Below are positions 53,899 to 58,335 of a DNA stretch of 64,000 nucleotides, piece by piece. The stretch's first letter is position 1, and each line of letters begins with the position of its first letter. Both the position numbers and the translations under genes were made by a program. This DNA is from Thermus amyloliquefaciens (GTDB lineage Bacteria; Deinococcota; Deinococci; Deinococcales; Thermaceae). The notes beneath the pieces are model-generated. The model ran no database searches. It saw nothing but the letters and a program-made list of their open reading frames with translations, and was not told the DNA's origin. Where the stretch lies: positions 1,860,001 through 1,924,000 of the forward strand of contig NZ_JQMV01000003.1 of assembly GCF_000744885.1 (NCBI RefSeq). The letters run 5' to 3'.

Positions 53899-56139
53899 GT
53901 GCGGGATGTCCTCGAGGTCCTGGAGTTCCCCAAGGTCCGCGCCCTCCTAGCGGAAAGGGCCAAGACCCCTCTGGGGGCGGAGCTGGCCCTGGCCTTAGCC
54001 CCTCTGCCCCAGGAGGAGGCGGAAAGGAGGCTTGCCCTCACCCAGGAGGCCCTGGCCTACCCCTACAGCCTCCCCGAGGCGGGGGCCCTACGGGAGGCCT
54101 ACCGCAAGGCCCAGGCGGGTTCCCGGCTCCCGGGGGGGGAACTCCTCAAGGCGGCCCAGGCCCTCGAGGCGGCCATGGCCCTCAAGGAGGAGCTCCTTCC
54201 CCTGCAAAACCTCCTAAGCCAGGTGGCGGCGGGCATCGGAGACCACGGGGCCTTCCTCGCCAAGGTCAGGAGGGCCCTGGACGAGGAGGGGACCGTGCGG
54301 GACGAGGCGAGCCCTCGGCTTTTGGCCATCCGCCGGGAGCTAAACCCCTTGCGGCAACAAATCCTGGAGCGGCTGTACGCCCTCTTGGACCGCCACCCCG
54401 AGGCGGTCCAGGACCGGTTCGTCACCGTGCGCCGCGAGCGCTACTGCATCCCCGTGCGCGCGGGAATGGCCCAAAGGGTTCCCGGCATCCTCCTGGACGA
54501 ATCCGGGTCCGGGGCCACCCTCTTCATAGAGCCCCTCTCCGTGGTGAAGCTCAACAACCGCCTCCAGGCCCTCCGCCTCCAGGAGGAGGAGGAGGTAAAC
54601 CGCATCCTGAGGGAACTCTCGGAGACCCTGGCCCAAGACCCCGGGCTTCCCAGCACCCTCAAGACCCTGGGCCTTTTGGACCTGATCCAGGCCCAGGCGG
54701 CTTTGGCCCGGGATTTTCACCTCACCCGGCCCCGCTTCGGGGAGGGCTACGAGCTTTTCCAGGCCTTCCACCCCCTCATCCCCAACCCCGTCCCCAACTC
54801 CCTGGCCTTGGACGAGGCCAAGCGCCTCATCCTCATCTCCGGCCCCAACATGGGGGGAAAGACCGCCCTCCTCAAAACCCTGGGCCTGGCGGTGCTCATG
54901 GCCCAGTCGGGGCTTTTTGTGGCGGCCAAGAAGGCCACCTTGGCCTGGCCCGACAGGGTCTTCGCCGACATCGGCGACGAGCAATCCCTTCAGGAAAACC
55001 TCTCCACCTTCGCCGGGCACCTGCAAAGGCTTAAGGAGATGCTGGAAAAGGCCACGGCAAAGAGCCTGGTCCTCATCGACGAGCTGGGAAGCGGCACCGA
55101 TCCCGAGGAGGGGGCGGCCCTTTCCCAGGCCATCCTCGAGGCCCTCCTGGAAAAAGGGGTTAAGGGCCTGGTCACCACCCACCTCTCCCCCCTGAAGGCC
55201 TTCGCCCAGGGGCGCCAGGGCATCCAAAACGCCTCCATGCGCTTTGACCTGGAGGCTTTGCGCCCCACCTACGAGCTGGTCCTGGGGGTGCCTGGGCGGA
55301 GCTACGCCCTGGCCATCGCCAGGAGGCTTTCCCTGCCCGAGGCGGTGCTGAAGCGGGCGGAAGGCCTCCTGCCCCAAGGGGGGCGGCTGGAGGCCCTCCT
55401 GGAGGAGCTGGAAGGGGAAAGGTTGCGCCTGGAGGAGGAAAGAAGCCGGCTCCTTTCCCAAATGGCCCAGGTGGAGGCCTTGAGGAAACGCCTGGAGGAG
55501 CGGGAGGCCCATTTTGAGGAGGAGCGCTCGCAACGGCTTAAGGCCCTGGAGGAGGAGGTCCGCCAGAGGCTCCTCAAGGTGGAGGCCGAGCTCAAAGCCC
55601 TCAAGGAAAAGGCCAAAACCCAGGGGAAAAGGGATGCCCTGCGGGAGCTTTTGGCCCTGAGGGAGCGGTACGCCAGGACCGCCCCCAAGGAGGCCTTGGA
55701 GGTGCCCAGGGGCCTCGAGGCGGGGCAGATGGTGGAGATCGCCTCCCTGAAGCGCCAGGGAAGGCTTCTGGAGCTGAGGGGAGAGGAGGCCTTGGTCCAG
55801 GTGGGCCCGGTGAAGATGACGGTGAAGGCCAAGGAGCTCACCCCCCTCAAGGCCCAGGAAACCCCCAAGGCCATCGGCCTAAAGCCGCGAAGGGAGGTGA
55901 AGGAGGTGGACCTCAGGGGGCTTACCGTGGAGGAGGCCCTCTTGGAGGTGGACGCCGCCCTGGGGGAGGCCCGCTCCCTGGGCCTCACCACCCTGCGCCT
56001 CCTCCACGGCAAGGGCACCGGGGCCCTTAGGCAGGCCATCCGCGAGGCCTTAAGGCGGGATAGGCGGGTGGAAACCTTCGCCGACGCCCCTCCCCACGAG
56101 GGCGGGCACGGGGTCACGGTGGTGGTGCTGAGGGGCTAA
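53899..56139 (+). CDS. mutS2: Endonuclease MutS2
   Basis: 746 residues. MutS-type clamp and lever (1-300), ATPase with Walker A GPNMGGKT (315-322), the LIDELGSGTDPEEGAAL box and the switch VTTHLSPLKAF. A coiled coil rich in E/R/L follows (about 500-590), then a C-terminal Smr nuclease domain (VDLRGLTVEEALLEVD near 672; LLHGKGTGALRQAIREAL). MutS2 of Thermus is known as a branched-DNA endonuclease that limits recombination; it also acts on collided ribosomes in Bacillus. It is not part of mismatch repair. Confidence 0.96.
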   Translation: MRDVLEVLEFPKVRALLAERAKTPLGAELALALAPLPQEEAERRLALTQEALAYPYSLPEAGALREAYRKAQAGSRLPGGELLKAAQALEAAMALKEELLPLQNLLSQVAAGIGDHGAFLAKVRRALDEEGTVRDEASPRLLAIRRELNPLRQQILERLYALLDRHPEAVQDRFVTVRRERYCIPVRAGMAQRVPGILLDESGSGATLFIEPLSVVKLNNRLQALRLQEEEEVNRILRELSETLAQDPGLPSTLKTLGLLDLIQAQAALARDFHLTRPRFGEGYELFQAFHPLIPNPVPNSLALDEAKRLILISGPNMGGKTALLKTLGLAVLMAQSGLFVAAKKATLAWPDRVFADIGDEQSLQENLSTFAGHLQRLKEMLEKATAKSLVLIDELGSGTDPEEGAALSQAILEALLEKGVKGLVTTHLSPLKAFAQGRQGIQNASMRFDLEALRPTYELVLGVPGRSYALAIARRLSLPEAVLKRAEGLLPQGGRLEALLEELEGERLRLEEERSRLLSQMAQVEALRKRLEEREAHFEEERSQRLKALEEEVRQRLLKVEAELKALKEKAKTQGKRDALRELLALRERYARTAPKEALEVPRGLEAGQMVEIASLKRQGRLLELRGEEALVQVGPVKMTVKAKELTPLKAQETPKAIGLKPRREVKEVDLRGLTVEEALLEVDAALGEARSLGLTTLRLLHGKGTGALRQAIREALRRDRRVETFADAPPHEGGHGVTVVVLRG

Positions 56140-56200: not shown

Positions 56201-56602
56201 CTAAAAGGCGCGGCCTTCCAAGGCCTCTATGCGCTTCCGGATGGCCGGGGGCAAAGGGGCGGGCCTCCCCCCTTCCAGCCAGACCTGGACCGTCTTGCCC
56301 CGGGCGGCCTCCTCCCCCCCTGCCCGAAGGAGGTACTCCATGTCAAAGCTGCTTCGCCCAAGGCGCACCACCCGTACCCCCACCTCCACGGGATCCTCCA
56401 GGAATATGGGTCGCAGGAAATCCACCTCCGCCCGGGCCAGGATGAAGTGCCCCTTTTCCAACCAGTCCCTCTCCAGCCTCTGGAAGTAGGCGGTGCGGGC
56501 CACCTCCAAGTAGGTGAGGTAGACGGCGTTGTTCACATGCCCCAGGGCATCCAGGTCGCGGAAGCGCACCTGTATGGGTACGGATACGGGAAAACCCTCC
56601 AC
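56201..56602 (-). CDS. Acyl-CoA thioesterase, hot-dog fold (YbgC/FadM type)
   Basis: 133 residues. The 4-hydroxybenzoyl-CoA thioesterase-like motif VRFRDLDALGHVNNAVYLTYLEVART (residues 12-37) has the catalytic Asp at D17/D19 and the HVNN signature. The last part is ...VQVWLEGGRPAPLP. Substrate acyl group not determined. The start is GTG 56602 with a TATACT box 8 nt upstream, so leaderless. Its start faces that of the M3 peptidase, with a perfect palindrome between them. Confidence 0.9.
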   Translation of the reverse strand: MEGFPVSVPIQVRFRDLDALGHVNNAVYLTYLEVARTAYFQRLERDWLEKGHFILARAEVDFLRPIFLEDPVEVGVRVVRLGRSSFDMEYLLRAGGEEAARGKTVQVWLEGGRPAPLPPAIRKRIEALEGRAF

Positions 56603-56610
56603 GAAGGGAG

Positions 56611-56616
56611 AGTATA
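56611..56616 (-). promoter_or_regulatory. -10 element of the thioesterase gene
   Basis: TATACT on the minus strand, 8 nt before GTG 56602. Confidence 0.5.
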
Positions 56617-56620
56617 AGGG

Positions 56621-56636
56621 CTGACCCGCGGGTCAG
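56621..56636. promoter_or_regulatory. Perfect 16-bp palindrome between divergent promoters
   Basis: CTGACCCGCGGGTCAG equals its own reverse complement. It lies between the -10 of the thioesterase (minus) and that of the M3 peptidase (plus), so a dimeric repressor bound there could control both. The half-site GACC with central GC symmetry suits a TetR-type protein, but no regulator gene is nearby. The thioesterase partner would fit control by an acyl-CoA-sensing regulator (inference). Confidence 0.55.
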
Positions 56637-56637
56637 G

Positions 56638-56643
56638 TATAGT
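56638..56643 (+). promoter_or_regulatory. -10 element of the M3 peptidase gene
   Basis: TATAGT ends 6 nt before ATG 56650. Confidence 0.45.
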
Positions 56644-56649
56644 GGGGCC

Positions 56650-58335
56650 ATGGAAACCACGTGGGACCTAACCCCCCTTTTCCCCAGCCTGGAAAGCCCC
56701 GAGTTCCAAGCCGCTTGGGAGGAGGTGCGGAGGCGGATCGGCCAGCTGAAGGAGGCGGTGGGCCAACAAGCCCCCCTCGAGGAGGTCCTGGCCTCCTTGG
56801 ACGCCCTTTCGGAGGCCTCCACCCCCCTATGGGCCTACCTCTATGCCCGCTTCACCGCGGACACCACCGACGAGGCCGCCCTGGCCAAGCTCTCGGAGCT
56901 GGAGGTGCTCTTTTTGGATTTCGCCCGCATACGGCCAAGGCTCACCCGCTACCTGGCCCTCCAGGACCCGGAAGAGGCCGGCCCTTACCGGATCCTGGTG
57001 GAGGAGGCCAAGGAGGAGGCCCTGCACATGATGCCCGAGGGGGAGGAGGTCCTGGCGGCGGAGCTCTCCCTTTCCGGGCGCCAGTCCTGGGCCAAGCTCC
57101 ACGAGAACCTCACCAGCCAGATCACGGCGGTGGTGGAGGGGGAGGAGTTGCCCATCACCAAGGTGCGCAACCTCTACTTCCACCCCGAGGAGGAGGTGCG
57201 CAAAAAGGCCTACCAAGCGGAGCTTAGGGCCTGGGAGAGCCACGAGGTACCCCTGGCCTACGCCCTCAACGGGGTCAAGGGGGAAGCCTCTGTGCTCCAC
57301 AGGAGGCGGGGGTACCGGGACGACCTCGAGCCCAGCCTGCACCGAAACCGCATCACCAAGAAGGCCCTTCTGGCCCTCCTGGAGGCGGTGAGGGAAAGCC
57401 TCCCCCTTTTCCACCGCTACTACCTCCTCAAGGCCAAGGCCCTGGGCAAGGAGCGCCTGGACTGGTGGGACCTCTTTGCCCCCATAGGGAAGGGCCGGCG
57501 CTGGACCCTCGAGGAGGCCCGGGACTTCCTCCGGGAAAAACTGGCCACCCTGGTCCCGGGCGCCGCCCAGGTGGCGGAGGAAGCCTTTAAGGAGCGCTGG
57601 ATGGACCTCCTGCCCCGAAAGAACAAGGTGGGCGGGGCCTACTGCATGGGGAGGGGTGGGGGCAAAAGCCTCATCCTGGCCAACTACGAGGAAAGCTTTG
57701 AGTCGGTCTCCACCCTGGCCCACGAGCTGGGCCACGCTTACCACAACTTCGCCCTGGCCCGGGTGCCCGCCAGCCTGCGGGAGGTGCCCATGACCCTGGC
57801 GGAAACCGCCAGCATCATGAACGAAACCCTGGTGGTGGAGGCGGCCCTGAGGGAAGCCTCCCCGGAGGAGGGGCTTTTGATCCTGGACGCCTACCTGCAA
57901 GGGGCGGCCCAGGTGGTGGTGGACATCTACAGCCGTTACCTCTTTGAGTCCTGGGTCTTTGAAGGGAGGAAGGCCCGGGAGCTTTCCCCCAGGGAGTTCA
58001 AGGAGCTCATGCTGAAGGCCCAGAAGGAGGCCTACGGGGAGGTCCTCGCCACCCATCACCCCTACATGTGGGCGGTGAAGGGGCACTACTACGGCTCCGA
58101 CTTCTACAACTACCCCTACACCTTTGGCCTGCTCTTCGGCTTGGCCGTGTACCAAGAGGCCAAGGAGGACCCGGGCTTCGCCGAACGGTACGAGGAGCTT
58201 CTGGCCTCCTCGGGCATGTACCGGGCCAAGGAGCTGGCGGCCCGCTACGGCTTTGACCTGGAAAGCCCAGGCTTTTGGCAGAGGGCCCTTGGGGTCCTGG
58301 CCGAGAAGGTGGCGGAGCTGGAAAGGAGGCTCTGA
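56650..58335 (+). CDS. pepF: Oligoendopeptidase F (M3 metallopeptidase)
   Basis: Cytosolic zinc peptidase that cleaves peptides of roughly 5-20 residues. 561 residues. The HExxH motif is HELGH at 358-362, with the third zinc ligand in LAETASIMNETL about 25 residues later (the E of SIMNE). N-terminal half is alpha-helical (WDLTPLFPSLESPEF). C-terminal GHYYGSDFYNYPYTFGLLFG is a family feature. It may process peptides imported by systems such as the dpp-like one. Confidence 0.94.
   Translation: METTWDLTPLFPSLESPEFQAAWEEVRRRIGQLKEAVGQQAPLEEVLASLDALSEASTPLWAYLYARFTADTTDEAALAKLSELEVLFLDFARIRPRLTRYLALQDPEEAGPYRILVEEAKEEALHMMPEGEEVLAAELSLSGRQSWAKLHENLTSQITAVVEGEELPITKVRNLYFHPEEEVRKKAYQAELRAWESHEVPLAYALNGVKGEASVLHRRRGYRDDLEPSLHRNRITKKALLALLEAVRESLPLFHRYYLLKAKALGKERLDWWDLFAPIGKGRRWTLEEARDFLREKLATLVPGAAQVAEEAFKERWMDLLPRKNKVGGAYCMGRGGGKSLILANYEESFESVSTLAHELGHAYHNFALARVPASLREVPMTLAETASIMNETLVVEAALREASPEEGLLILDAYLQGAAQVVVDIYSRYLFESWVFEGRKARELSPREFKELMLKAQKEAYGEVLATHHPYMWAVKGHYYGSDFYNYPYTFGLLFGLAVYQEAKEDPGFAERYEELLASSGMYRAKELAARYGFDLESPGFWQRALGVLAEKVAELERRL

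Follow-up and report, generated by a model that had tools for sequence, protein, structure and literature searches.

A perfect 16-bp palindrome, CTGACCCGCGGGTCAG, separates two divergent genes of Thermus amyloliquefaciens, and we wondered which of them it controls and which protein would bind it. In the 64,000-nucleotide stretch of DNA that we analysed (the window), the palindrome occupies positions 56621–56636, reads alike on both strands and lies between two -10 hexamers, as the preliminary description of this DNA had said: TATAGT of pepF (56638–56643, plus strand) and TATACT of a thioesterase-like gene (56616–56611, minus strand). The same description had it touching both promoters, which is nearly so, as gaps of 1 bp to the pepF -10 and 4 bp to the thioesterase -10 place it within the core-promoter spacer. 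The pepF-type M3 oligoendopeptidase gene (56650–58335, plus strand; Pfam PF01432, E 1.9e-33) begins with an ATG at 56650, 6 nt after its -10, and PDB relatives of its product carry the names oligoendopeptidase F or putative peptidase. On the other side, a 4HBT hot-dog thioesterase-like gene (56201–56602, minus strand; Pfam PF13279 and PF03061) begins with a GTG at 56602, 8 nt from its -10; its product matches PDB 2cye, a putative thioesterase, with an E-value of 4.4e-57. A scan of 56500–56750 for consensus sigma-70 promoters returned none, so both promoters rest on their -10 hexamers and spacing. This spacing suggests that both transcripts are leaderless or nearly so, and the 6 nt between the pepF -10 and ATG point to a putatively leaderless pepF message. 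Because both -10 boxes fall within 33 bp, the two promoters overlap and could hardly be occupied together. Beyond the thioesterase-like gene, a gene of MutS2 type (domains MutS_V and Smr; 53899–56139) stops about 60 bp short of the end of this convergent neighbour, and the DNA on that side appears different in some relatives.

Perfect symmetry turned out to be within chance. The window holds four perfect 16-bp palindromes against a mean of 2.85 in dinucleotide shuffles, 56 of 60 of which contained at least one, and we dropped rarity of the palindrome as evidence. In the 2.16-Mb genome, the perfect 16-mer occurs at the pepF site alone, with three further places at two mismatches, one of them the site of an aldo-keto reductase. 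What gives the palindrome its significance is not symmetry but conservation. The sequence CTGACCNNNNGGTCAG stands directly 5' of the pepF -10 in 27 of 27 same-genus genomes, which are related species and not independent samples. The preliminary description had named missing conservation upstream of the orthologous genes as grounds for giving up its proposal; this comparison was run, and conservation was complete. The 27 alignment rows were chosen by a pattern that requires the motif; all genomes are included, and 26 were also read without that condition and G042 separately. Twelve outer palindrome positions are invariant in all 27 genomes and the inner four are variable, with the full 16-base perfect palindrome in only 10 genomes and symmetry broken in 17 as judged by eye. 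The position of the pepF -10 is kept throughout the genus with minor letter changes, and conservation from there to the ATG is about equal to that of the palindrome. A low mean of 0.32 bits on the left side stems from ungapped anchoring, in which some flanks are not homologous.

Outside the genus, the family contributed 23 genomes, one of which (G010) lacked a pepF match at the threshold. Among the 22 that were read, a single sister-genus genome (G049) carries a close form, TGACCCGCCGGTCA, at the equivalent place at pepF; in the 21 more distant genomes, TGAC-N6-GTCA was absent from the examined stretch upstream of pepF. Within the genus, coordinates place the divergent thioesterase start within about 85 bp of the pepF site in 18 of 27 genomes, and 10 of these 18 have TATACT or TATAGT facing the site, as judged by eye. 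In the other nine, about 130 bp to 6 kb separate the thioesterase gene from it or the gene is carried by a different contig, and the site is found with pepF in every one of them. This indicates that the palindrome would serve pepF first as an operator.

The preliminary description had predicted a TetR-family operator, and the inner 14-mer, TGACCCGCGGGTCA (56622–56635), suggests which one. For SbtR (TTHA0167) of Thermus thermophilus HB8, the available text of PMC4948773 gives a genomic SELEX consensus, TGACCCNNKGGTCA, and a REPSA consensus, TGACYRNNYRGTCA. The window site fits TGACCCNNKGGTCA with no mismatches and is the one such place in the window. Against TGACYRNNYRGTCA, it matches TGACY and RGTCA and misses the inner R and Y, which are printed in lower case (PMC7022988); ten window places are equally good at these two mismatches. 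Its departure from the REPSA consensus includes the C at position 6, and the m6 variant, with G replaced by C there in a single half-site, bound no worse in BLI, at a tabulated KD of 0.16 nM against 0.22 nM (PMC4948773). Moreover, the window 14-mer is identical in every letter to a site upstream of TTHA0787 in HB8, which SbtR genomic SELEX recovered in two clones and from whose template SbtR lowered run-off transcription (Agari et al., via PMC4948773). As TTHA0787 is described there as a 38-aa uncharacterised ORF, only the 14-mer is common to that locus and the window.

The genome encodes an SbtR orthologue. Five TetR-family loci exceed the Pfam cut-off; one of these has PDB 3VUQ, which is SbtR (PMC4948773), as its best match (E 2e-100 to 3.9e-100) and a C-terminal 'SbtR-like' Pfam domain, also over the cut-off. 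Its recognition-helix segment, VGKGTIYLYF, is identical in 3VUQ and in 26 SbtR loci of the genus, a comparison that left out G042, where SbtR is split into two matches. At a threshold of E 1e-15, 47 of the 50 family genomes have an SbtR relative. Of the 21 more distant ones that lack the site at pepF, 18 are among them, which marks the connection between SbtR and pepF as a trait of the lineage. A different TetR-family protein (G000:C3:1198119–1198259) has a best PDB match of E 4.9e-13 that covers residues 2–66 only, with closely matching Thermus TetR structures absent among its PDB matches.

With an exact TGACCCNNKGGTCA fit, an SbtR orthologue in the genome and conservation in 27 of 27 genomes, the prediction of a TetR-family operator is supported, and we put the probability that the palindrome is an SbtR operator repressing pepF at about 85%. 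It resembles the HB8 SbtR operators in being a palindrome of 14 bp that lies within a core promoter and faces a regulator with the same recognition-helix segment. It differs in its proposed target, as the published target table does not name pepF (PMC4948773). A probable trace of it is nonetheless in print: Table 3 of that paper places TGACCGGCGGGTCA 15 bp before TTHA1852, enters 'N' under promoter and classes the gene as a later member of an operon, and the final SbtR target table omits TTHA1852 (PMC4948773). The same 14-mer stands 14 nt from the pepF ATG in G027 and G048, and for this reason TTHA1852 is probably pepF. The printed match may have been set aside since a leaderless promoter with a -10 only went unrecognised. 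A literature search returned no report joining SbtR with pepF and, as judged by titles, none joining Thermus oligoendopeptidase F with a TetR regulator. From sequence comparison, pepF is likely a conserved SbtR target, and a probable regulator, SbtR, can be named for this conserved Thermus peptidase gene.

Would another regulator fit the site as well? The genome encodes a close relative of PDB 3VPR, which we take to be PfmR, and the TTHB023/PfmR consensus covers the pepF site at two mismatches. Both systems use TetR-type palindromes, and some TTHB023 sites, those at TTHA1315/16 and TTHA1605/06, are in print as also bound by SbtR (PMC7022988), so that TTHB023/PfmR, foremost among other Thermus TetR regulators, might bind here alone or share the site with SbtR. 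However, the two mismatches fall on capital core bases of the TTHB023 consensus, G7 and C10, its REPSA consensus is not matched, and five window places fit TTHB023 equally well. The 16-mer carries C at position 7 in 24 of 27 genomes, which shows that conservation does not extend to the TTHB023 core, and we regard this binder as unlikely. The preliminary description had instead pointed to a regulator of acyl-CoA or aromatic-acid metabolism such as FadR or PaaR, given that a thioesterase gene adjoins the site. The genome likewise encodes a protein closely related to PDB 3ANG, which is a TetR repressor from Thermus and presumably FadR. Yet the FadR consensus TTRNACYNRGTNYAA has at least 4 mismatches of 15 at its best match across 56605–56654, with 480 window places as good, and the TTHA0973 (PaaR) consensus AACnAACGTTnGTT has 7 mismatches of 14 at its best (consensuses from the available text of PMC5597230 and PMC6651687). 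Moreover, the site tracks pepF and not the thioesterase, being kept in 9 of 9 genomes in which the latter lies at least about 130 bp off or on a different contig. This part of the preliminary description did not hold up, and a fatty-acid or aromatic-acid regulator at pepF is extremely improbable. On consensus mismatches, FadR, PaaR and PfmR are rejected or weak as binders.

Alternatively, the palindrome could be a promoter part, or a chance palindrome beside a conserved promoter, and no operator at all. Perfect 16-bp palindromes are equally frequent in shuffled windows, conservation continues at a similar level through the -10 up to the ATG, and symmetry is broken at the inner four bases in most genomes (17 of 27, by eye). 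Against this, the invariant twelve outer positions comprise the SbtR contacts of the published consensus and one further base on either side, the same motif recurs at other promoters, and at more distant pepF genes a TATACT-like -10 is retained although the motif is missing, as judged by eye. We consider a non-operator very unlikely; most likely, the palindrome is a conserved operator of the known regulator SbtR and a gene switch of the ordinary kind.

As an SbtR operator, the site suggests a simple model: an SbtR dimer would bind TGACCCGCGGGTCA, and the palindrome would cover roughly positions -29 to -14 at pepF, downstream of the -35 region and upstream of the -10 of its leaderless promoter, with coordinates counted from an inferred start site. 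The bound dimer would keep RNA polymerase off pepF until a ligand released SbtR from the operator. We infer binding and repression at pepF itself; for other HB8 promoters, SbtR binding and in-vitro repression have been published (PMC4948773), and microarrays of wild-type and SbtR-knockout HB8 have been deposited (SuperSeries GSE21875; PMC7022988). In this species, the same dimer would also occupy the divergent thioesterase promoter, within its spacer, and probably block this gene as well. The proposal that a bound dimer shuts off both genes thus keeps its pepF half as a likely prediction, whereas for the thioesterase, a possible second target, it is plausible only in the 18 of 27 genomes whose thioesterase start is no more than about 85 bp away; co-repression is plausible here and not general.

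The motif is not confined to pepF. In this genome, TGACCNNNNGGTCA occurs at nine places and its reversed control at none; per genus genome, there are 5 to 12 places, with 0 to 2 for controls. A broader search with TGACYNNNNRGTCA gave 12 places in the genome. It added three places, one with the TTHA1315/1316 14-mer and two with a 14-mer assigned to rRNA genes in PMC4948773. We clustered the surroundings of 74 sites listed for 8 of the 27 genomes; the other 19 genomes, including one listed site of G030, were left out, and one clustered region (L184) measured 937 bases, not 1201. Clusters present in 8 of 8 genomes were those of pepF, a divergent pair of an MFS transporter and a TTHA1821-like gene, an aldo-keto reductase and an ABC transporter. 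An alanine dehydrogenase/EamA exporter cluster followed in 7 of 8 and a TldD/PmbA-type metallopeptidase cluster in 6 of 8; clusters of a HAD hydrolase, of a branched-chain-type periplasmic binding protein and of a coding-looking site were each found in 5 of 8. The remaining sites formed two clusters in two genomes each and ten singletons. Gene names were assigned with Pfam on loci of this genome and G023, where the TTHA1821-like protein had no Pfam match. Several recurring sites match published HB8 SbtR targets by site sequence, and putative equivalence to TTHA1821/1822, TTHA0027 and TTHA1330 was taken from similarity of the sites or from how PMC4948773 describes the genes. The printed match that was once set aside is hence probably among the most conserved members of the set: pepF is found in all eight clustered genomes, as are three other targets, and by itself in 27 of 27.

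Proposed roles of SbtR are transport and oxidative stress (PMC4948773). The composition of the set tentatively suggests another, namely that SbtR might repress peptide and amino-acid use throughout the genus, with pepF at the core of its targets, in which case a peptide, amino acid or derived metabolite would act as its ligand; we found no report of an SbtR ligand in the available passages on this regulator. The motif stands before the alanine dehydrogenase and EamA exporter genes, the TldD/PmbA-type metallopeptidase gene, the branched-chain-type periplasmic binding protein gene and ABC and MFS transporter genes, which fits this theme, whereas the aldo-keto reductase, the HAD hydrolase, the TTHA1821-like protein and the thioesterase, which have the motif in common, speak against it. 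The conserved set of peptidase, amino-acid and transporter genes provides a testable alternative to the published SbtR roles and offers a shortlist of ligands.

Two of the recurring sites are unusual in their position. A perfect TGACC-N4-GGTCA (G000:C3:1354072–1354085), present in 5 of 8 genomes, lies in apparently coding sequence and perhaps reflects conservation of codons and not regulation. At the ABC transporter gene (G000:C3:426723–426736 and the cluster in seven other genomes), the motif starts inside the ATG itself (ATGACC...), just downstream of a TAAACT or TAGACT -10, so that in 8 of 8 genomes a leaderless message would open with the operator.
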